A stretch of DNA of 64,000 nt from Acidobacteriota bacterium. Its GTDB lineage: Bacteria; Acidobacteriota; Terriglobia; Acidiferrales; UBA7541. The position numbers were made by a program, and so were the translations under genes. Location of the stretch: the NCBI GenBank assembly GCA_013289585.1, contig JABCZR010000019.1:1-64000 (forward strand), written 5' to 3'. This document shows positions 1-14,147 of the stretch, piece by piece (position 1 is the first letter of the stretch; every line of letters starts with the position of its first letter). The notes beneath the pieces are model-generated. The model was not told where the DNA came from. It was given only the letters and a program-made list of their open reading frames with translations, and did no database searches.

Positions 1-827
1 AATTTCGCAATTACCGCCCCCAGATGCCCCGGCTCGCAATGCGTAATCGCCAGCTCCCCGCCAGTAATCGCCCCCGCCACCAAAAAAGTTCCCGCCTCGA
101 TCCTGTCCGGAATCACCATATGCTCCGTCCCGTGCAGTTCCTTCACGCCTCGAATCCGCAGCGTCGACGTCCCATCCCCGCAAATCTCCGCCCCCATTTT
201 CCTCAACATCACCACCAAATCCGTCACTTCCGGCTCCCGCGCCGCGTTCTCCAATACCGTCTCCCCCTCTGCCAGCGCCGCCGCCATCAAAATATTTTCC
301 GTCCCCGTCACCGTAATTTTCTCGAAATGAATCCGAGCGCCCTTCAACCGCCTGCCCTTGTGCCCATTCCCCCGCACCTTCGCCTCAATATATCCGTGCG
401 AAGTCGTGATCTCCGCTCCCATCTGCTCCAGCGCCTTCAAATGCAAATCGATCGGCCGCGCCCCAATCGCGCATCCGCCCGGCAACGACACTCGCGCCAC
501 TCCCTTCCGCGCCATCAGCGGCCCCAGCGTCAGGATCGACGCCCGCATCGTCTTCACCAGTTCATATGGCGCCTCCGTATGGTTCAAGCTCGGCGCCTGA
601 ATCACGTAATCGCTCGCCGGCACCTCTGCCACCGAAACCTTCGCGTCCATAAACGCCAACAGCTTGCTCATCGTGATCAGGTCGCGCACCTTCGGAATGT
701 TGTGCAGCGTCACCGGCTCCGCCGTCAGCAGCGCCGCCGCCATCACCGGAAGCGCCGAATTCTTCGCCCCGCTGATCGCCACCGTCCCCCGCAGCGCCTT
801 CCCGCCCTGAATCAGAAACTTATCCAT
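1..827 (-). CDS. murA: UDP-N-acetylglucosamine 1-carboxyvinyltransferase, C-terminus cut by window edge
   Basis: MurA transfers enolpyruvate from PEP to UDP-GlcNAc, the first committed cytoplasmic step of peptidoglycan synthesis. Reading from the ATG whose A is at 827, the protein starts [20 protein letters not shown] and continues with the substrate-binding KN pair ([15 protein letters not shown]). The loop [14 protein letters not shown] carries the catalytic Cys that is the fosfomycin target in this family. About 275 codons are present of a usual 420 or so, so the gene runs off the left edge. It lies upstream of nothing else visible on this strand except murQ, which is 174 bases behind it in the same direction. 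The gap between the two holds three dispersed repeats, so a shared transcript is possible but not shown. Family assignment is secure. Confidence 0.95.
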
Positions 828-877
828 TCCGCCTCTCGCCTCTCCCTCGTCCCAGAACCGCGGCCTTCCGCCGCCCA

Positions 878-911
878 TTTTGGAGTGCGGCAGCTTGCTG
901 CCGCTTTTCCG
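878..911 (+). repeat. Palindromic repeat, family A (copy 1)
   Basis: Core TTTTGGAGTGCGG, a short stem-loop (GCAGCTTGCTGC), then CCGCTTTTCCG. Five further copies lie at 3529-3563, 52949-52983, 53023-53060 (inverted), 59561-59593 (inverted) and 60815-60849 (inverted). The ends are conserved while the stem changes in a compensating way, as in REP-like elements. This copy lies between murA and murQ. Confidence 0.8.
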
Positions 912-976: not shown

Positions 977-1020
977 TCTCTGTGACCTCTGCGTCTCTGC
1001 GTTAGGTTCTTTCCTTTAGC
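977..1020 (+). repeat. Pyrimidine-rich repeat, family B (copy 1)
   Basis: Contains CCTCTGCGTCTCTGCGTTAG followed by TTC/TTT-rich sequence. A second copy is at 3690-3740 just before murU. This copy overlaps the last codons and the stop codon of murQ on the opposite strand. Confidence 0.6.
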
Positions 1021-1910
1021 GCTTTCCGCAAATTCCCCTTTGCAATTCTCAATTTCTTTTTTGTCCCCGATGCGCTTGCTCCCTCCTTCAACATCACCAG
1101 CGCCACTCGCATATCGTGTCCCCCCGCCCGCAAAGCGTCTCCCGCCACGGACACACTCTTCCCGCTAGCCTCCGCCAGGATCCGCAGCGCTCGCCCTGCA
1201 AGCTTCTCATTCGTCAGCATCATGTCGATCATCAAGTTCTCATACACATGTCCCAGCCTCGCCATCACCGCTGTACTCAGCATGTTCAGCACCATCTTTT
1301 GCGACGTCCCCGCCTTCAACCGCGTCGACCCCGTCAGCACTTCCGGCCCCACCTCCGGCGCAATCATGATCTTCGCCAGCCGTCCCACCGGCACCCGCAA
1401 ATTCGACGTCACCGCCACCGTCGTCGCCCCGCGCTTCCGCGCAAACCGCAGCGCCCCCAGCACGTACGGCGTCGTCCCGCTCGCCGCAATTCCCACCACC
1501 ACGTCCTTCCGAGTCATTCGAATCGCCCGCAAATCCCGCTCCCCGTTCCGCTCCGAATCCTCCGCCCCTTCAACCGCTCGCGTAATCGCTCGCCTTCCTC
1601 CCGCAATCAACGCCCGCACCAGTTTCGGCGAAATCCCAAACGTCGGCGGACACTCCGCCGCATCCAGCACACCCATCCGCCCGCTCGATCCCGCCCCCAC
1701 ATAAATCAATCGCCCGCCCTTTCGAATCCGGGCGACAATCGCATCCACCGCCCGCGCAATCGCCGGAATCTCCCGCCCCACCGCCGCCGCCACGTTGCCA
1801 TCCTCGCGATTCATCAACCGCACAATCTCCAGCGCCGTCATTCGGTCGAGCTTCCTCGACGCCGCATTCCTTTGTTCCGTGTTCCTAAGTTCTCTAGTTC
1901 GAGAGGGCAT
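1002..1910 (-). CDS. murQ: N-acetylmuramic acid 6-phosphate etherase
   Basis: MurQ cleaves the lactyl ether of MurNAc-6-phosphate to give GlcNAc-6-phosphate and D-lactate, the key catabolic step in recycling of the muramyl sugar. The 302-residue protein shows the SIS fold: GGRLIYVGAGSSGRMGVLDA near the N-terminus, the family motif AECPPTFG, then GIAASGTTPYV and GSTRLKAGTSQKMVLNM. The ATG at 1910 (MPSRTRELRNTEQRN) is preferred; an in-frame upstream ATG at 1949 would add 13 residues unlike the family. A TATAAT sits directly upstream of the chosen start, so the message may be leaderless. The last codons and stop come from a dispersed repeat (977-1020). Neighbours amgK-like and murU-like genes belong to the same recycling theme. 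Confidence 0.93.
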   Translation of the reverse strand: MPSRTRELRNTEQRNAASRKLDRMTALEIVRLMNREDGNVAAAVGREIPAIARAVDAIVARIRKGGRLIYVGAGSSGRMGVLDAAECPPTFGISPKLVRALIAGGRRAITRAVEGAEDSERNGERDLRAIRMTRKDVVVGIAASGTTPYVLGALRFARKRGATTVAVTSNLRVPVGRLAKIMIAPEVGPEVLTGSTRLKAGTSQKMVLNMLSTAVMARLGHVYENLMIDMMLTNEKLAGRALRILAEASGKSVSVAGDALRAGGHDMRVALVMLKEGASASGTKKKLRIAKGNLRKALKERT

Positions 1911-1916
1911 CAAGGC

Positions 1917-1922
1917 ATTATA
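1917..1922 (-). promoter_or_regulatory. Possible -10 element for murQ
   Basis: On the minus strand TATAAT ends six bases before the ATG of murQ, the distance expected between a -10 box and a transcription start. Transcription would then begin at or next to the start codon. No good -35 hexamer is visible, so this is tentative. Confidence 0.35.
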
Positions 1923-2074
1923 CAGACCGCCGAAAATCTCACGCAGCACAGCGGATCCTGGCTGTGCGCTTCAGACACGTGCAACCGGCTTAGCAACACA
2001 CTCTCAACCGAGCGAATCTCTTTGTCAAAAATCAGTTATGTTAGGGAAGCTTCGAAACGGAATATCTGGAACCC

Positions 2075-3508
2075 ATGTCGATAGACGTTCTAAAAAAACT
2101 CTTCGAGCAGCACTTCCACGCGCCTCCATCGCGCGTTCAGCCGCTCCAGGGCGAGCTCGGCGGCTCCGGCCGCAAAATCATCCGCCTCTCCAACGAAAAA
2201 TCCACCGCCATCGGCATCCTCTACGGTGTGCGCGAAGAAAACGTCGCCTTCCTCGAATTCTCCAAGCATTTTCGCCGCCACGGTCTCCCCGTCCCCCAAA
2301 TCTACGCCGAAGACCTCTCCCACGGCGCCTATCTCCAGGAAGACCTCGGCGACACCACGCTCTTCGAATTCCTCTCCAAACATCGCACCGGCACGGACAT
2401 CGCCCCCGAAGTCGTCGAAGCCTATCGCAAAGTCGTCGCCGTCCTGCCGCGCTTCCAGATCGAAGCCGGCCTCGATCTGAACTACAAAGTCTGCTATCCC
2501 ATTTCCAGCTTCGATCGTCAGTCCATCGCCTGGGATTTGAACTATTTCAAATACTATTTTCTTCGCCTCGCCGGCATTCCCTTCAACGAGCAAGCCCTCG
2601 AAGACGATTTCAGCCGCCTCACCGATTTCCTCCTCAGCGCCCCGCGCGATTATTTCCTCTACCGCGACTTCCAGTCCCGCAACATCATGCTCCGCAACGG
2701 CGATCCTTTTTTTGTCGACTATCAAGGCGGCCGCAAAGGCGCTCTGCAATACGACATCGCCTCGCTCCTCTACGACGCCAAAGCCGACCTGCCCCCCGAA
2801 CTTCGCCAGCAACTTCTCGATCACTATCTCGACCGCCTCGCCGGTTTCATCCAGCTCGATCGCGAACCCTTCCTCCAGTATTACTACGCCTACGTTTTCG
2901 TCCGCATCATGCAAGCCCTCGGCGCTTACGGCTTCCGCGGCTTCTACGAACGCAAAGCCCATTTCCTCCAAAGTGTTCCCTACGCCCTGAAAAATCTTCG
3001 CTGGCTCCTCCACAACGTCCGCCTGCCCATCGAGCTGCCCACTCTCATGGCGGCGTTTCACAGCATGCTGGCCTCGGAAAAATTGCAGGCCCTCGCCGCG
3101 GAAACCGAAAACCTCGTCGTGCGCATTTTCAGCTTCTCTTTTCACCAATCCTTGCCCGCCGACGAAACCGGCAACGGCGGCGGCTTCGTCTTCGATGGCC
3201 GCAGCCTCCCCAACCCCGGCCGCGAAGAACAATTCAAATTTCTCACCGGCAAAGACGCCCCGGTCATCGAATATCTCCAGCAACAGGAAACCGTTCACCA
3301 GTTTTTCGCCAGCGTCCTCTCCCTCGTCGACGCCTGCATCACCACCTACCAATCCCGCCATTTCAAAAATCTAATGGTCTCCTTCGGTTGCACCGGCGGC
3401 CAGCACCGCTCCGTCTACCTCGCCGAACAACTAGCCAAGCGCCTCCGCCCGCGCCCCGGCCTCGAAGTTGTCCTCCGCCACCTCGAACTCGAGAAGCAGG
3501 GCAAATGA
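2075..3508 (+). CDS. AmgK-like amino-sugar kinase fused to a RapZ C-terminal domain
   Basis: Two-domain protein of 477 residues. Residues 1-330 are an aminoglycoside-phosphotransferase fold of the COG3178/AmgK type: catalytic loop YRDFQSRN (D198, N203; the usual His is Tyr196) and metal-binding VDYQGG (D215), followed by the AmgK-like stretch ALQYDIASLLYD. AmgK phosphorylates MurNAc or GlcNAc at C1. Residues 346-475 match the C-terminal domain of RapZ, with VSFGCTGGQHRSVYLAE; in E. coli that domain binds glucosamine-6-phosphate and the sRNA GlmZ. The N-terminal P-loop ATPase part of RapZ is absent. The next gene downstream encodes a MurU-type nucleotidyltransferase, the natural partner of AmgK. 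The function as a sugar-1-kinase is inferred from fold and neighbours; a regulatory role for the RapZ part is a hypothesis. Confidence 0.85.
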   Translation: MSIDVLKKLFEQHFHAPPSRVQPLQGELGGSGRKIIRLSNEKSTAIGILYGVREENVAFLEFSKHFRRHGLPVPQIYAEDLSHGAYLQEDLGDTTLFEFLSKHRTGTDIAPEVVEAYRKVVAVLPRFQIEAGLDLNYKVCYPISSFDRQSIAWDLNYFKYYFLRLAGIPFNEQALEDDFSRLTDFLLSAPRDYFLYRDFQSRNIMLRNGDPFFVDYQGGRKGALQYDIASLLYDAKADLPPELRQQLLDHYLDRLAGFIQLDREPFLQYYYAYVFVRIMQALGAYGFRGFYERKAHFLQSVPYALKNLRWLLHNVRLPIELPTLMAAFHSMLASEKLQALAAETENLVVRIFSFSFHQSLPADETGNGGGFVFDGRSLPNPGREEQFKFLTGKDAPVIEYLQQQETVHQFFASVLSLVDACITTYQSRHFKNLMVSFGCTGGQHRSVYLAEQLAKRLRPRPGLEVVLRHLELEKQGK

Positions 3509-3752: not shown

Positions 3753-4577
3753 ATGAAAGCCATGATTCTAGCCGCCGGCCTCGGCACCCGCCTCAAACCC
3801 CTCACCGACTCCCGCCCCAAAGCCCTCGTTGAAATCAACAACCGCACCCTCCTCGAAATCACCCTCACCCGCCTCCGCGCCTTCGGCATCACCGAAGTCA
3901 TCATCAACGTCCACCACTTCGCCGATCAAATCGTCGCCTACCTGCGCTCCAAAAATTATTTCAACCTGCGCATCGAAGTCTCCCGCGAAGACGACCTCCT
4001 CCTCGACACCGGCGGCGGCCTGAAAAAAGCCTCCTGGTTTTTCCTCGAAGATCCAAAAAGTCTCGACGAGCCCTTCCTCCTCCACAACGTCGACGTCCTC
4101 AGCACCATCGACTTCACTCGCATGCTCCAATTCCACGAAGACCATCACACCCTCGCCACCCTCGCCGTCCAATCCCGCCCCTCCGGGCGCCAACTCCTCT
4201 TCGACGACCATCTCCAACTCCACGCCCGCGCCGCGAGCCCAGCCCAAATAGCAGAAGCTAGTCATTCCGAGCGCAGCGCGCATTCTGCGCTTCGGACGAA
4301 TTTGCGGAGCGAGGAATCCGCTTCTTCCGTATCCCAGCCCGAGCCCCTCCAACCCCTCGCCTTCTCCGGCATCCACCTCATCTCCCCCCGCCTCCTCCCC
4401 CTCCTCACCGAAACCGGCCCCTTCTCCATCATCGATTCCTACCTTCGACTCGCCGCCCAAGGCCAAAAAATCCTCGCCTTCCGCTCCGACCAATACTACT
4501 GGCGCGACCTCGGCCGCCCCGCCGACCTCACCCAAGCCGCCCTCGACCTGGAAAGCGGGTTGCGTGCCGAAGACTGA
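3753..4577 (+). CDS. murU: MurU-type sugar-1-phosphate nucleotidyltransferase
   Basis: Nucleotidyltransferase of the RmlA/GlmU-like fold, 274 residues. The signature is AAGLGTRLKPLTDSRPKAL (residues 7-25), followed by the metal-binding HNVDVLS and the sugar-site GGGLKKA. In Pseudomonas MurU makes UDP-MurNAc from MurNAc-1-phosphate, bypassing de novo synthesis; placement directly behind an AmgK-like kinase argues for that role here. A 60-base dispersed repeat (4261-4320) is inserted in frame, adding about 20 residues (170-189) just before the conserved AFSGIHLISPRLLPLL strand. The frame is kept, so the protein may still fold with an enlarged loop. A mannose-1-phosphate guanylyltransferase-like activity is the alternative reading. 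Confidence 0.82.
   Translation: MKAMILAAGLGTRLKPLTDSRPKALVEINNRTLLEITLTRLRAFGITEVIINVHHFADQIVAYLRSKNYFNLRIEVSREDDLLLDTGGGLKKASWFFLEDPKSLDEPFLLHNVDVLSTIDFTRMLQFHEDHHTLATLAVQSRPSGRQLLFDDHLQLHARAASPAQIAEASHSERSAHSALRTNLRSEESASSVSQPEPLQPLAFSGIHLISPRLLPLLTETGPFSIIDSYLRLAAQGQKILAFRSDQYYWRDLGRPADLTQAALDLESGLRAED
4261..4320 (+). repeat. Repeat of the GTCATTCCGAGCG...GAGGAATCC type inside murU
   Basis: Starts GTCATTCCGAGCGCAGCG and ends GCGGAGCGAGGAATCCG, with a short palindrome (GCGCATTCTGCGC) between. This element type is normally intergenic in many soil and sediment bacteria. At 60 bases it keeps the murU reading frame open. Confidence 0.7.
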
Positions 4578-7389: not shown

Positions 7390-7677
7390 ATGGGCAGGAA
7401 ACCACGCGTAGATCGATCCCCGGAAGAGAAGTGGCAGATCGTGCAGGAAGGCATCAAGAGCGGGAACGTCTCTGAGACATGTCGGCGTCACGCGATCGCT
7501 CCGAATCTGTTCTATCGCTGGAAGGATGAAGCGGAACAGGGAGCGAAGGCAGCGCTTGGGGGGAGAAGCGCTGCCGCGGCGGAAACTGAGAAAGACCATC
7601 GCATCCGGCAGTTGGAACGAACGCTGGGGCGGAAGTCGCTGGAAATCGAAATCCTAAAAAACGTCGTGGGGGAGTGA
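7390..7677 (+). CDS. IS3-family transposase OrfA (helix-turn-helix)
   Basis: 95 residues: MGRKPRVDRSPEEKWQIVQE, a helix-turn-helix (GNVSETCRRHAIAPNLFYRW), then a leucine-zipper-like tail (IRQLERTLGRKSLEIEILK). OrfA binds the element ends and represses or guides transposition. The sequence A_AAA_AAC at 7656-7662 lies in the right phase for a -1 shift into orfB, which would give the OrfAB transposase. The ORF ends in GTGA overlapping the orfB start. Confidence 0.92.
   Translation: MGRKPRVDRSPEEKWQIVQEGIKSGNVSETCRRHAIAPNLFYRWKDEAEQGAKAALGGRSAAAAETEKDHRIRQLERTLGRKSLEIEILKNVVGE
7656..7662 (+). promoter_or_regulatory. Putative programmed -1 frameshift site A_AAA_AAC
   Basis: In the orfA frame the codons read CTA AAA AAC, giving the classical X_XXY_YYZ heptamer A_AAA_AAC. 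Slippage by -1 continues CCT AAA AAA CGT into the orfB frame, which is open through this point. Confidence 0.75.
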
Positions 7678-8516
7678 ACTGTGGTGCGGTTCACTCCCAG
7701 GCACGAGAGATGGTGACGCTGGCGATCAGCCGGTCGAGTCTGTATTACCGGAAGCGGCCGAGAGGCAGCCGGGCTGACCGGACCTACGATGAGCAGATCG
7801 TGATGGCGTGCGGGGAGAAGTTGGCGTACGGCTATCGGCGAGTGACGTGGTGGCTACAGCGGAAGAAAGGGCTACCCGTGAATCGCAAGCGAGTGTTACG
7901 AGTGATGCGAGAACGTGGGTTGCTGGTGCGCTCGCGTCGTCTGCGCGCACGACGGAAGAAAGACTGGGGCCGCGTGGAAGCAGCCGAGCCGAATCAGATC
8001 TGGCAGTCGGACATGACAAAGATCTGGGCAGGTCCTGCAGTGGGTTGGGCGTACTTGGTATGCGTGATCGACTGCTGTACGCGGGAGATCGTGGGGTGGA
8101 ATCTCTCGCATCGCTGTCGGACCGAAGACGCGCTCATAGCGGTGGAGCAGGCCGTGCTGGAACGGTTGCCCGAAGGTAGCCGCGAGGAAAACGTGACGCT
8201 GACGACGGATAACGGAACGCAGTTCACCTCCTCGCGCTTCCTGGAGACGTTGGGGCGGCTCGGCATCACCCATCGGCGGACGGCGTATCATCACCCGGAA
8301 GGCAACAGCTACATCGAACGATTCCATCGCAGCCTGAAAGAAGAAGAAGTCTGGACGGCGGAGTATCGAAGCTTGGAAGAAGCGCGAGCATCGATCGCTC
8401 GTTGGATCGAGGAGTACAATCACGACCGGCCTCACCGCGGAGTCGGAAATCGCACTCCGCACGAGGCCTTCTTGGCTTTCGCAGGTGTACTAAAAAATGA
8501 GGCCCTGACTGTCTAA
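7674..8516 (+). CDS. IS3-family transposase OrfB (DDE integrase core)
   Basis: 280 residues counted from the GTG at 7674. The N-terminal part has the HTH_21-like KLAYGYRRVTWWLQ; the catalytic core shows the DDE triad: QSDMTKIW (first Asp), TTDNGTQFTS (second Asp) and NSYIERFHRSLKEEE (Glu). It is probably made mainly as an OrfAB fusion by frameshifting. It ends 19 bases before the right inverted repeat tip. Confidence 0.93.
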   Translation: MNCGAVHSQAREMVTLAISRSSLYYRKRPRGSRADRTYDEQIVMACGEKLAYGYRRVTWWLQRKKGLPVNRKRVLRVMRERGLLVRSRRLRARRKKDWGRVEAAEPNQIWQSDMTKIWAGPAVGWAYLVCVIDCCTREIVGWNLSHRCRTEDALIAVEQAVLERLPEGSREENVTLTTDNGTQFTSSRFLETLGRLGITHRRTAYHHPEGNSYIERFHRSLKEEEVWTAEYRSLEEARASIARWIEEYNHDRPHRGVGNRTPHEAFLAFAGVLKNEALTV

Positions 8517-9825: not shown

Positions 9826-12774
9826 TTATTTCCCAAACGCCTGCATCACCGCATCATGCACCGCAGGCCGCACCTGCTGAATCTTGATATTCTCACGCGT
9901 CGGATGCACACGATTCGTCAGCAGCACCACAAACAGTTGCCGCTCCGGATCGATCCAGATCGACGTTCCGGTAAATCCTGTGTGGCCATAGCTGTGCGCC
10001 GAAAAATAGTGCCCGCTCGATCCGCCCTCGGTCGGCACCGCCCAGCCCAACGTGCGCGTCCCACCGGAAAGCTGCTGTGGAGTCGTGAATTGCGCAATCG
10101 TCGCGCGCCGCACGATTCTCTGGTGCGCGTAAACGCCGCCGTTCAGCAGCATCTGGCAGAACGCCGCCAAATCCGGCGCCGTGCTGAAAAGTCCCGCATG
10201 CCCGGATACGCCGCCAATCGCAAACGCATTTTCGTCGTGAACTTCGCCTTGCACCAGCCGGTGCCGCAGTTGGTTATCAATTTCCGTAGGCGCAATCGTC
10301 GGCCACAGTTTTTTCGGCGGCCGGTACATCGTGTCTTTCATTCCCAGCGGCGAAAAAATGTAGCTCTTCGCCAAATCATCCAGCGTCCGCCCCGTCAGCC
10401 GCTCGATGATTTCCGCCATCAAAATAATTCCCAGGTCCGAATAAATTTCCTTCGTCCCCGGCTCATACTCCAGCGGCTCCGCAAAAATTCTTCCGAGCGT
10501 GTCTTGTTTCCCCTTCGACGTTCGCCAATATTCTTTGAACGCCGGCAATCCCGAAGTGTGCGTCAGCAAATGCCGCACCGTCACCTTGCGCCGCCACTCC
10601 GCATTCGGTCCGCTCGCCCACTCCGGCAAATACCGCACCACCGGCGCATCCAGATCCAGCGGAACAGCAAAATCTCCTTCCGCCAGTTTTTCGGCCAGTG
10701 TCGTTGTGACCACAACTTTCGTCAGCGACGCAATGTCATAAATCGTGCTCGGATTTACGGCCGCTGCCTTCGCGTCGTAACTCAATTTTCCGAACGCGCG
10801 CACCGAAACTTTTCCGCGATAGCCCACTGCCAGCGTCGCACCGGGAAACGCTTTCTCCGCAATCGCTTTTTCAATCAAGTCGGATGCGGGTTGCAATTTC
10901 GCAACGTCGCCAGCATCCATCGGCTGCAGCGTCATCGGATTCGCCGGCAGCTCCATTCCGAATCCCGCTTTCAAATTCACGCCAGGAATCGTCACCGGCA
11001 ATTTCCCGCGCACCGGAATTTGCGCAAACAGCGCCCGCGCCACAGAAATTTGCGCCACGTCGCTGATCCCAAATACCGCCAGCCACGTTTCCGCCTGCGG
11101 AAATTTTTCAATCAAATAGGGGCTCCCGAATCCCACGGTAATTACCGGCTTGCCCGTCTTGTAAATTTGCTCAGCCAGTGCCGCCTGCTCCGCGGGAACA
11201 TCCACGTTTCCTTTGCGGTCGCTCACGCGCACAAACAGCGCGAGAATCGCTACATCGTAGGAATCGGGCGGCGGCAATTTCAGCGTGCCAGCGTTCACGA
11301 ATTTTGTGTCGGCGCGCAACGTGGTGACGGATTCGAATCGCGAACGCAACTCGCGTTCGAGATCTTCTCCGGGGTACGGTTCCGGATCCGCATAAAGCGC
11401 CAGAAGCAGCGCGCGCGACGGTTTTGTGCCATCGAGCGGCAAACGGTGGGACGTGTCGCGCAAAAGCGTGACGCCGCGATCCGAAATTTCCTGAGCTTCT
11501 TTTTGCCACGCGACGTTCCCGAATTTTTGATTGATGGCGTTGAGGTCCACGAGGCGATTCGAATGCAAGCCGAGGCGCGCTTTCGCTTGCAAGGTGCGGC
11601 GCACGGATGCGTCGAGGCGTTCTTTCGAAATGCGTCCGGACTTCACGGCGTCCTGGAGCGATTCGAATGCGGCATCCGGAACCGGCGGCATCAGCAGCGC
11701 GTCCGCGCCCGCCAGAACCGCGCGCACGGCGGCTTCGCCGGGAGCGTAACGCACGGTGATTCCGCCCATGTCCATGGCGTCGGTGACGACGAGGCCCTGG
11801 AATCCGAGTTCGTCGCGCAACAATCCCGTCAAAATATTGTGAGAGAGCGTGGCGGGCGTATTCGAATCGGGCTCGAGCGCGGGAATCGAAAGATGCCCAG
11901 TCATGACGCTGCCGGCGCCGGCAGCGATCGCCGCGCGAAAAGGAACCAGCTCCAAATTCTCAAGGCGATCGCGATCGGCGCGAATGACCGGCAAATCGAT
12001 GTGCGAATCGGCGGCGGTGTCGCCGTGTCCCGGAAAATGTTTTGCGGTTGCGAGGCCGCCATTTTCCTCGACGCCGCGAACAAACTGAGAAACAAATTCC
12101 GCCACGCGCTGCGGATCCTCGCCGAACGAGCGCGTGTTGATAATCGGATTTCCGGGATTGTTATTTACATCGGCGTCGGGCGCGTAAATCCACTGAATTC
12201 CGACGGCGCGGGCTTCGAGAGCGGTGATTTTGCCCATGGTGTAGGCATCTTTCGAATCGCCGCCCGCCGCGAGCGCCATGGCGGTGGGGAAGGAGGTGCC
12301 TTCATCGAGGCGCATGGCCGTGCCGCGTTCGAAGTCCGCGCCGATCAGCAGCGGCAATTTCGACTTGGCTTGGAGCTGGTTCGTCAACACGGCGGTCGGA
12401 TACGCCTGGCTCTTCACAATTCCCAGCGGCGACATATGCGTAATGTTGATGAATCCCCCGACGTGCAGATCGTTCACGTCGTGCATGATCTGCTGGTAAG
12501 CCGCGGCGTCCGTCGGTGTAAAGCTGCCATGGTAGGTGGTGAAAAGCAGCTGGCCGATTTTTTCATCGACGGTCATTTTGCGCATGGTGGATTCGACCCA
12601 GGCGCTGGCAGCGGGAGAAAGTTTTTTCGTGGAGCTTTTTGCGGCGGCCCGGGTTTCCGAGGTGATGGGCTTTTTGGCGGAGGCGCTGCGGTTTTGGCTG
12701 CGTGCGTTATGGTTCATAAGGAAAAGTATGGCGACGGAAATCAAGAGCAGAAAGCGGACGCGGCGTCCTTCCAT
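9826..12774 (-). CDS. Secreted beta-N-acetylglucosaminidase (GH3, NagZ-type) fused to a serine beta-lactamase-like hydrolase
   Basis: About 982 residues from the ATG at 12774 (MEGRRVRFLLLISVAILFL, a signal peptide); an upstream in-frame ATG at 12819 would add 15 residues. Residue numbers below count from 12819. Residues 75-420 are the GH3 catalytic domain with the NagZ-specific KHFPGHGDTAADSH (260-273), which supplies the His/Asp acid-base pair, and VVTDAMDMGG with nucleophile D347. Residues 445-625 are a GH3 C-terminal domain. Residues 640-990 are a penicillin-binding/beta-lactamase fold with SLTK (S698, K701), YSD (793) and HTG (946). In Bacillus subtilis NagZ, AmiE (a serine hydrolase amidase) and NamZ are separate neighbouring genes; here two are fused and NamZ is divergent next door. 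Predicted to strip GlcNAc and perhaps peptides from muropeptides outside the cytoplasm. Confidence 0.9.
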   Translation of the reverse strand: MEGRRVRFLLLISVAILFLMNHNARSQNRSASAKKPITSETRAAAKSSTKKLSPAASAWVESTMRKMTVDEKIGQLLFTTYHGSFTPTDAAAYQQIMHDVNDLHVGGFINITHMSPLGIVKSQAYPTAVLTNQLQAKSKLPLLIGADFERGTAMRLDEGTSFPTAMALAAGGDSKDAYTMGKITALEARAVGIQWIYAPDADVNNNPGNPIINTRSFGEDPQRVAEFVSQFVRGVEENGGLATAKHFPGHGDTAADSHIDLPVIRADRDRLENLELVPFRAAIAAGAGSVMTGHLSIPALEPDSNTPATLSHNILTGLLRDELGFQGLVVTDAMDMGGITVRYAPGEAAVRAVLAGADALLMPPVPDAAFESLQDAVKSGRISKERLDASVRRTLQAKARLGLHSNRLVDLNAINQKFGNVAWQKEAQEISDRGVTLLRDTSHRLPLDGTKPSRALLLALYADPEPYPGEDLERELRSRFESVTTLRADTKFVNAGTLKLPPPDSYDVAILALFVRVSDRKGNVDVPAEQAALAEQIYKTGKPVITVGFGSPYLIEKFPQAETWLAVFGISDVAQISVARALFAQIPVRGKLPVTIPGVNLKAGFGMELPANPMTLQPMDAGDVAKLQPASDLIEKAIAEKAFPGATLAVGYRGKVSVRAFGKLSYDAKAAAVNPSTIYDIASLTKVVVTTTLAEKLAEGDFAVPLDLDAPVVRYLPEWASGPNAEWRRKVTVRHLLTHTSGLPAFKEYWRTSKGKQDTLGRIFAEPLEYEPGTKEIYSDLGIILMAEIIERLTGRTLDDLAKSYIFSPLGMKDTMYRPPKKLWPTIAPTEIDNQLRHRLVQGEVHDENAFAIGGVSGHAGLFSTAPDLAAFCQMLLNGGVYAHQRIVRRATIAQFTTPQQLSGGTRTLGWAVPTEGGSSGHYFSAHSYGHTGFTGTSIWIDPERQLFVVLLTNRVHPTRENIKIQQVRPAVHDAVMQAFGK

Positions 12775-12902
12775 CGATTCGAATCCCCCGGAGGTCGCCC
12801 GCGGTCTGCATTTATACATAGCACACGCACATCATGCTCTCAACGCAGCCGGGGCCAGCGCGTTCCAGAATATCATTGTATGGTTGCCAAAGAGGGGGAC
12901 CG

Positions 12903-14147
12903 TTGACCGGACGCCAGGGCGCGCTTTCCATATTCGCAGGTTCCACGATTTGTCTGACAATTTTCCTGTACGCGGCGGCTCCTTTGCAGGCGTCCTCGAA
13001 ACACGCAAGCCACGCGGCGCGAGTGCAGACGGGCCTGGATGTTCTCGAAGCGCAAAAATTCGCGCCACTTCGCGGGAAACACATTGGGTTGATCACGAAT
13101 CACACGGGCGTGGACTCGCAGGGCCGCAGCACCGTTGACATTTTATCGCATGCTACGGGGGTACAGCTCGTCGCCCTTTTCAGCCCGGAACATGGTCTCG
13201 CCGGGAACAATGACGAAAAGTTTTCTTCCACCAAAGATCCGTCCACTGGGCTCCCAGTGCACAGTCTGTATGGTGAAACGCAGCGGCCGACGGACGAGAT
13301 GCTCACCGGGATTGATACGCTGGTCTTCGATGTTCAAGACGCGGGAGTGCGCTTCTACACGTACACGACGACGATGGCGTATTGCATGGAAGAAGCGGCG
13401 AAACGCAACATCGCGTTTTTAGTTCTCGACCGTCCTGATCCGATCGGCGGGGAAATCGTGGAAGGTCCGATGCTCGATCCCGACAAAACCAGTTTCACGG
13501 CGTATTTTCCACTGCCGGTGCGGTACGGACTGACGATTGGCGAGCTCGCGCAGCTTTTCAACGCAGAGAATCACATCGGCGCGGACCTTCATGTAATCGC
13601 CATGAAGAACTGGCATCGCAACTATTTTTTCGAGAGCACGGGGATCAAGTGGATTCCGCCATCGCCCAATTTGCGCACTACGAAGGGGGCCATCCTGTAT
13701 CCCGGAATTGAAATCCTGCAGAACGCGGGTGTCTCTGTTGGGCGAGGCACGCAGACGCCGTTCGAAGAGTTTGGCGCGCCGTGGCTGAACGGAGAGGAAG
13801 TCGCCGCCGCGCTGAACGAACGCCACCTTCCCGGCGTCCGTTTTTCAGCGCAACCTTTTATTCCTGTGGTTGGCCTTTACAGCGGGCAGCGCTGCGGCGG
13901 CGTGGCGATTCGTGTGACCGATCGCTTCACGGTGCGCTCCATGCGCGTGGGCCTGGAAATTGCGGCGCTGCTGCAAAAGCTTTACCCGAAACAGTTCGAC
14001 GCTGGGAAGCTTCTGTTGCTGCTGGGAAACGCCGATACCGTCCAGCAGCTGGCAGCGGGCGTAAGTCCGGAAAAGATCATCGCGAGCTGGGCACCGGCGC
14101 TGACGGCCTTTGACGCCGTGCGCCGCAAGTACTTCCTTTACAAATAG
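12903..14147 (+). CDS. namZ: Exo-beta-N-acetylmuramidase NamZ (DUF1343, GH171)
   Basis: NamZ removes MurNAc from the non-reducing end of peptidoglycan fragments, complementing NagZ. The TTG at 12903 is preferred: it follows AGAGGGGGACC and opens directly into LTGRQGALSIFAGSTICLTI, a signal peptide; the ATG at 12834 lacks a ribosome-binding site. The mature part shows the DUF1343 hallmarks: GLITNHTGVDSQGRST, FSPEHGLAG with the probable catalytic Glu (about residue 96), VFDVQDAGVRFYTYT, VLDRPDPIGG and GRGTQTPFEEFGAPW. Full length for the family. It is transcribed divergently from the NagZ fusion, leaving about 130 bases of shared control region. The product MurNAc would need import and a kinase, both candidates for which lie at 28.4-30.9 kb. 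Confidence 0.9.
   Translation: MTGRQGALSIFAGSTICLTIFLYAAAPLQASSKHASHAARVQTGLDVLEAQKFAPLRGKHIGLITNHTGVDSQGRSTVDILSHATGVQLVALFSPEHGLAGNNDEKFSSTKDPSTGLPVHSLYGETQRPTDEMLTGIDTLVFDVQDAGVRFYTYTTTMAYCMEEAAKRNIAFLVLDRPDPIGGEIVEGPMLDPDKTSFTAYFPLPVRYGLTIGELAQLFNAENHIGADLHVIAMKNWHRNYFFESTGIKWIPPSPNLRTTKGAILYPGIEILQNAGVSVGRGTQTPFEEFGAPWLNGEEVAAALNERHLPGVRFSAQPFIPVVGLYSGQRCGGVAIRVTDRFTVRSMRVGLEIAALLQKLYPKQFDAGKLLLLLGNADTVQQLAAGVSPEKIIASWAPALTAFDAVRRKYFLYK

Follow-up and report, generated by a model that had tools for sequence, protein, structure and literature searches.

The 64,000-nucleotide stretch of DNA analysed here (the window; positions 1 to 64,000 of contig JABCZR010000019.1, from an Acidobacteriota bacterium) carries a gene in which a NagZ-type glycoside hydrolase of family GH3 and a serine hydrolase are joined in one polypeptide, next to a divergently oriented gene for NamZ. 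The fusion protein is proposed to be an exported, bifunctional exo-enzyme of muropeptide salvage that would remove first the N-acetylglucosamine (GlcNAc) and then the stem peptide; we infer both the bond that is cut and the export. This reading is given a probability of about 0.7, having been lowered from 0.72 to 0.70 because a strict recount of the co-occurrence across genomes described below was weaker.

The GH3 part would take the non-reducing GlcNAc off GlcNAc-MurNAc-peptide, where MurNAc is N-acetylmuramic acid. The attached hydrolase, of the YfeW/AmiE kind, would then strip the stem peptide from MurNAc, most likely at the MurNAc-L-alanine amide, making the C-terminal domain a putative amidase. 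The divergently encoded NamZ (YbbC in Bacillus subtilis) would remove MurNAc from chain ends, and the freed sugars could feed MurQ and perhaps the AmgK-like and MurU-like route encoded in the same window. The order of these steps follows the work on NagZ, AmiE and NamZ of B. subtilis and is put forward for the fusion by analogy. The coupled removal of sugar and peptide suggested originally, like any gain from joining the enzymes, is a conjecture, and the original interpretation is partly supported.

Both domain families were identified by Pfam in a single reading frame of 982 residues (Table 1), in agreement with the original prediction of one polypeptide containing NagZ and a serine hydrolase. 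A longer open frame of 997 residues (9826..12819, minus strand) begins at an upstream ATG at 12819. The ATG at 12774 is the likelier start, since alignments with many relatives begin at the first residue of the 982-residue form. The coordinates given originally, which use the start at 12774, can be retained; the catalytic residues named with them, D347 and S698, had been counted from 12819 and are D332 and S683 in the 982-residue protein, an offset of 15. The protein is probably exported, judging by eye from its hydrophobic N-terminus, and no lipobox cysteine was seen by eye in residues 1-27. An antisense open frame of 1016 residues (9856..12906, plus strand) extends over the fusion gene. It has no Pfam match at E 0.001 and is probably a by-product of composition.

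The first GH3 domain scores 294.3 bits with Glyco_hydro_3 against a Pfam cut-off of 27, and the second 30.9 bits with Glyco_hydro_3_C, marginally below the cut-off of 31. In an alignment with the structures 3bmx, 3lk6 and 6k5j, the catalytic aspartate nucleophile and the KHFPGHGxxxxDSH loop are present. The loop is common to the fusion and B. subtilis NagZ in the form KHFPGHGDTxxDSH, and D332 is aligned with residue 318 of the B. subtilis enzyme, the position altered in its mutant structures. The AlphaFold2 model of the whole chain has a mean predicted local distance difference test (pLDDT) score of 89.2 and a predicted template modelling (pTM) score of 0.84. Within it, residues 52-611 have B. 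subtilis NagZ as their best structural match (Z 52.4, root-mean-square deviation 2.5, 535 residues aligned), with the second GH3 domain folded as in that two-domain enzyme. The GH3 part is confirmed, at the level of prediction, as a two-domain NagZ-type beta-N-acetylglucosaminidase.

The serine hydrolase contains the motifs S683-x-x-K686, Y778-S-D, GGVSGHAGLF and G-H931-T-G. Conservation was assessed in an alignment of 30 rows, one of them duplicated, leaving 29 distinct fusions: D332, S683, K686 and Y778 are invariant, and D256 and H258 are kept in at least 90%. The catalytic residues of both enzymes are present, as had been claimed. In a quick tree of 104 rows, the 98 rows of the clade, with Escherichia coli YfeW and a Priestia PBP4B among them, are separated from an outgroup of six hydrolases with a support of 98 in the Shimodaira-Hasegawa-like approximate likelihood ratio test (SH-aLRT). 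This outgroup, made up of AmpC, AmpH and four hydrolases from Acidobacteriota, was picked partly by low score. The tree is support for, and not proof of, a grouping of the fused hydrolase with YfeW apart from AmpC and AmpH. The clade shares a motif set of SxTK or SxSK, YSD, a GG[VI][SA]GHAG-like sequence and GH[TL]G, with some exceptions. The fusion's own genome has one serine hydrolase that matches the clade profile with an E value of 1e-45 or lower. It has a single NagZ of the fusion type; beyond this protein, the GH3 part finds its best match at 29% identity.

Genes for MurNAc use recur around members of this clade. E. coli has the order murQ-murP-yfeW, and the clade member of Deinococcus taeanensis adjoins anmK and murQ. 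A Halanaerobiales locus (L085) has, on one strand, genes for an RpiR-type regulator, a MurQ-like SIS protein, NamZ, NagZ, a serine hydrolase and AnmK.

The window itself is, by its predicted genes, a MurNAc salvage region. The product of the gene divergent from the fusion, named as NamZ in the original prediction, has both NamZ domains well above the Pfam cut-offs (PF07075, NamZ_N, 279.1 bits against 26.9; PF20732, NamZ_C, 143.9 against 25). The window also encodes MurQ, an AmgK-like kinase (61.3 of 500 and 46.8 of 550 bits with the AmgK models) and a MurU-like protein, and an AnmK gene is present elsewhere in the genome. This context supports a role for the fusion protein in MurNAc salvage or muropeptide breakdown. 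The AmgK-like kinase is joined to a RapZ C-terminal domain, possibly a sensor domain attached to a salvage kinase.

Table 1. Features of the window that bear on the fusion and its surroundings.
Feature	Coordinates	Strand	Remarks
NagZ-serine hydrolase fusion coding sequence	9826..12774	-	982 residues; stop codon within coordinates
N-terminal hydrophobic stretch, putative signal peptide	12694..12774	-	Residues 1-27; by eye
GH3 N-terminal domain	11587..12573	-	Residues 68-396; Glyco_hydro_3; D256/H258 dyad, D332 nucleophile
GH3 C-terminal domain	10981..11271	-	Residues 502-598; Pfam score near cut-off and structural match to B. subtilis NagZ
Serine hydrolase domain, PF00144	9889..10881	-	Residues 632-962; Pfam Beta-lactamase, 232.3 bits
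Intergenic stretch between divergent starts	12775..12833	.	59 bp; both starts uncertain
NamZ, exo-beta-N-acetylmuramidase, GH171	12834..14147	+	NamZ_N and NamZ_C; start codon uncertain
MurA, truncated by window edge	3..878	-	
MurQ, N-acetylmuramic acid 6-phosphate etherase	1002..1949	-	TIGR00274, 369.1 bits, cut-off 302
AmgK-like sugar kinase (APH family) fused to RapZ C-terminal domain	2075..3508	+	AmgK models below cut-off
MurU-like nucleotidyltransferase	3753..4577	+	Best NCBIfam match MurU, 118.8 bits, below cut-off of 250
Transposase-type gene with integrase core	7674-8516		Between MurU-like gene and fusion

The same association is seen in related loci. These were drawn by similarity, mostly from Acidobacteriota, and the shares given here are not population estimates. 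Within the window's genus, many loci repeat the order NamZ, fusion, MurU-like, AmgK-like and MurQ, and in other genera of its family MurQ is usually directly behind the fusion. The fetched loci contain 100 distinct fusions, 91 of which have at least 1.2 kb of downstream sequence and could be assessed for murQ. It is downstream on the same strand for 56 of these 91, with 300 bp or less between the matched stretches in 28. For the NamZ partner, 84 fusions outside the triple fusions described below have at least 1.5 kb of upstream sequence. The divergent partner is a bare NamZ in 48 and a serine hydrolase-NamZ fusion in 13, and NamZ is in tandem with the fusion in a further arrangement (7 of 84). 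In four loci with the fusion and NamZ in tandem (L067, L210, L211 and L212), the matched stretches are 50-170 bp apart.

Co-occurrence was counted in a sample of 396 acidobacterial genomes, the hydrolase being defined by a match to the clade profile at E <= 1e-65. Both hydrolase and NamZ are found in 275 genomes, the hydrolase only in 19, NamZ only in 44 and neither in 58 (odds ratio 19, Fisher p 2e-25, uncorrected for kinship). When the hydrolase has to match at the stricter limit of 1e-100, the corresponding numbers are 184, 13, 135 and 64 (odds ratio 6.7, p 6e-11, likewise uncorrected).

Several results weigh against the proposed function. There is no same-strand murQ downstream of 35 of the 91 eligible fusions and no NamZ in the locus for 16 of the 84. 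Under the strict limit, 135 of 319 genomes with NamZ are without the hydrolase, while 97 of the 294 genomes counted as having it match more weakly than 1e-100, so that some may fall outside the clade. Shared descent may contribute to the co-occurrence, for which the five best hydrolase candidates per genome were scored. In the hydrolase tree, the Deinococcus and Halorussus rows are on long branches, as are four rows of the outgroup of six, including AmpC and AmpH. The GH3 part does not reach the NCBIfam cut-off for the beta-N-acetylhexosaminidase equivalog NF003740 (146.1 of 207 bits). The remaining points concern the C-terminal domain: its best NCBIfam model is penicillin-binding protein (PBP) PBP4B (NF002968), its relative YfeW is termed a low-affinity PBP and a report of DD-carboxypeptidase activity is cited for YfeW in the available text of PMC5061867, and the solved structures closest to it are esterases and an acyltransferase.

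It is possible, on the strength of the PBP4B model and of the description of YfeW from the same clade, that the C-terminal domain trims the stem peptide as a DD-carboxypeptidase or other peptidase rather than cutting the MurNAc-L-Ala amide, in which case it would still act on muropeptides. However, the cut-off of the PBP4B equivalog is not reached (202.7 of 385 bits), and AmiE of B. subtilis, which has the equivalent operon place, is described as a MurNAc-L-Ala amidase (PMC5061867). Furthermore, the supply of MurNAc to the neighbouring MurQ needs the whole peptide to be off. Peptide trimming is considered unlikely, while keeping some weight.

The structural matches would also suit an esterase that travels with NagZ and has as its substrates O-acetylated sugars, say, or a different ester of the cell envelope. 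In the model, residues 615-982 match several serine hydrolases, EstG among them (Z 39.3, 28% identity). EH7 and a family VIII carboxylesterase stand with EstG among the nearest structures (Z 37.5-39.3, 28% identity), and the two nearest sequences in the PDB are esterases. Against this, the modelled fold does not settle between amide and ester cleavage, the type of bond not being set by the fold in this superfamily, and the clade is linked with murQ, NamZ or NagZ across several phyla, as well as in E. coli. Among the matches listed by Foldseek for this domain none is named AmiE, and the list leaves room for a fold of that kind. An esterase is considered improbable.

A use of the GH3 part in chitin breakdown, with an incidental link to the cell wall, has as precedent the cutting of chitobiose and chitopentaose by the similar enzyme RmNag3 (PMC6987092). 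It is very improbable in view of the salvage genes in the window, the murQ genes downstream of more than half of the eligible fusions, and the best structural match, B. subtilis NagZ, which was solved with GlcNAc-MurNAc. A resistance-type beta-lactamase fused to a wall enzyme, with antibiotics as its target, is suggested by the Pfam name and by the SxxK and Tyr motifs and can be set aside almost entirely, as the class C model NF033085 scores only 64.3 of its 415-bit cut-off, HTG stands in the fused hydrolase where class C beta-lactamases carry their KTG box, and the fused domain is apart from AmpC in the tree.

Removal of GlcNAc and then of the stem peptide by the fusion thus remains the preferred reading, and it can be set against the wider distribution of these domains. 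A survey of such fusions, proposed with the original prediction, was made by a scan of genome contigs in which 300 relatives were confirmed; the best 80 were kept, representing 79 distinct loci. A single open frame encodes both NagZ and the hydrolase in 53 of the 79, leaving out two loci with broken frames (L050 and L071). Records bearing the fusion are labelled Acidobacteria, Thermoanaerobaculia, Bacteroidetes, Chlorobiaceae bacterium, Rhodothermales, Neomarinimicrobiota, Gemmatimonadetes and Planctomycetota. One record labelled Betaproteobacteria (L038, CAJCHZ010000006.1) has a fusion 77% identical to that of the window, surrounded by NamZ, MurU-like and AmgK-like genes as in the window's genus; this genome is probably mislabelled. 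In a close relative (L050:9998-12901) the fusion is broken into three frames, through either assembly error or decay.

Among the relatives, the hydrolase is placed on NagZ, on NamZ, on each of both, or stands alone. In several other genera of the window's family the divergent partner is a hydrolase-NamZ fusion, giving two hydrolase copies per locus, and a locus from another family (L227) has an unfused NagZ beside a NamZ that bears the hydrolase. Annotations name the NamZ-hydrolase fusions after one domain (e.g. WP_059583925.1). Two such fusions are on plasmids of Burkholderia savannae and Cupriavidus metallidurans (L149:6729-9119 and L154:4774-7116), where they follow genes for a polysaccharide deacetylase and for a putative glycoside hydrolase. 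On a plasmid of Halorussus limi (L150:4220-12786), genes for AnmK, an Amidase_2 protein, a clade serine hydrolase, NamZ and NagZ are close together on one strand. Haloarchaea of the Halorussus group are not known to have peptidoglycan, and these genes may possibly allow fragments of bacterial walls to be used.

Five distinct open frames join all three enzymes as NagZ-hydrolase-NamZ (L056:9887-13978, L057:9758-13927, L063:9761-14047, L208:1062-5663 and L209:3641-8494). They are mutually 54-64% identical over about 1,300 residues or more, and all five retain the loop and the VTD nucleophile motif of the GH3 part as well as the hydrolase SLTK. Three, including L057, come from the 396 sampled genomes, in which the two best candidates per genome were scored, and the other two are in additional named records. 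As the five come from separate assemblies, they are unlikely to be artefacts of joining. No account of the triple fusion or of NamZ-hydrolase fusions was found in the literature searched, as judged from titles and the opening lines of abstracts and from the available text of PMC6987092, PMC5061867 and the Tannerella papers PMC6721243 and PMC7670621.

The hydrolases fused to NamZ form a group in the tree with a support of 100 (26 rows, 20 fused and 6 alone), and those fused to NagZ, in triple fusions, and some that stand alone form another with a support of 82 (67 rows). With two lineages of hydrolase in the tree, at least two separate fusions therefore fit better, and the hopping of a single hydrolase between NagZ and NamZ was rejected. 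A single origin of the NagZ-hydrolase fusions across phyla was also dropped, there being 10 label changes on the tree, of which at least 7 are forced by starred branches. The NamZ tree does not resolve the directions of loss.

Some of the fused hydrolases are damaged. Among the distinct NagZ frames, 101 have a tail of 280 residues or longer; the Ser, Lys and Tyr of the hydrolase are kept in 95 of these, leaving six with damaged tails (L130, L131, L137, L145, L159 and L203, in genomes G041, G042, G043, G052, G087 and G338). All six genomes hold another clade copy with intact motifs, and damage was seen in 0 of the 37 frames counted that are beside a bare NamZ. This pattern fits a task shared between the hydrolase copies. 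Four of the six cases are from the window's family outside its genus and have a hydrolase-NamZ partner or parts of one, the partner in G043 being split over two contigs; the cases thus amount to few independent events.

A more general proposal, to which we would give even odds, is that the hydrolase is the peptide-removing module of an exo-acting disassembly line for peptidoglycan. It would be mounted on NagZ, on NamZ or on each, one copy being free to decay if another remains, and some Acidobacteriota would have joined all three enzymes in a chain about 1,300 residues long or longer, which could dismantle fragments unaided from the non-reducing end. Through the gene context in many acidobacterial genomes, an architecture that was known but half characterised is tied to MurNAc salvage, and it may be that many Acidobacteriota use wall fragments. 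The natural series of NagZ-hydrolase, hydrolase-NamZ and triple fusions provides ready constructs to ask whether joined exo-enzymes speed or order the breakdown. The function of the YfeW/PBP4B family, which has been called a PBP, also becomes directly testable.

The individual parts of the fusion have counterparts in better known systems. B. subtilis NagZ (YbbD; 3bmx, 4gyj) has the same two-domain GH3 fold, catalytic Asp and Asp-His loop, but is a separate protein, 31-32% identical to the GH3 part of the fusion. In the Bacillus cluster the genes are murQ, murR, murP, amiE, nagZ and ybbC (PMC5061867), so the arrangement of the partners as separate neighbouring genes is as originally claimed, and AmiE and NagZ act there in a sequential extracellular degradation of muropeptides (PMC5061867). 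AmiE (YbbE) is an operon partner of NagZ and YbbC, the same logic as that of the fusion and its NamZ neighbour, although it is the product of a separate gene and is likened to the fused hydrolase by operon place. The B. subtilis AmiE sequence was not found in the collections searched, where searches of plasmids gave the Priestia PBP4B and several operons. E. coli YfeW (PBP4B) belongs to the same clade as the fused hydrolase, shares its motifs and adjoins murQ and murP; it differs in being unfused, in being called a PBP and in having only 34% identity to the fused domain. NamZ (GH171) carries a serine hydrolase of its own in many relatives, and in the window it has both NamZ domains.

The closest precedent is RmNag3 of Rhodothermus marinus, published in 2020, which has GH3 domains 1 and 2 followed by a C-terminal domain of the beta-lactamase family (PMC6987092). 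Its GlcNAcase activity was measured and a signal peptide predicted, and the available text of that paper reports no test of the hydrolase domain. Its authors noted similar proteins in other bacteria, suggested a role in peptidoglycan turnover and pointed to NagZ and AmiE of B. subtilis (PMC6987092). The three-domain architecture (GH3 domain 1, domain 2 and PF00144) is the same in RmNag3 and the window fusion, and the NagZ-hydrolase architecture is thus already known. As described in that text, RmNag3 is without an adjacent glycoside hydrolase gene, whereas the window fusion adjoins NamZ and is near murQ and the AmgK-like and MurU-like genes. Three things appear to be new here: the triple fusion, the division of the hydrolase fusions into two lineages, and the setting among genes of MurNAc salvage.

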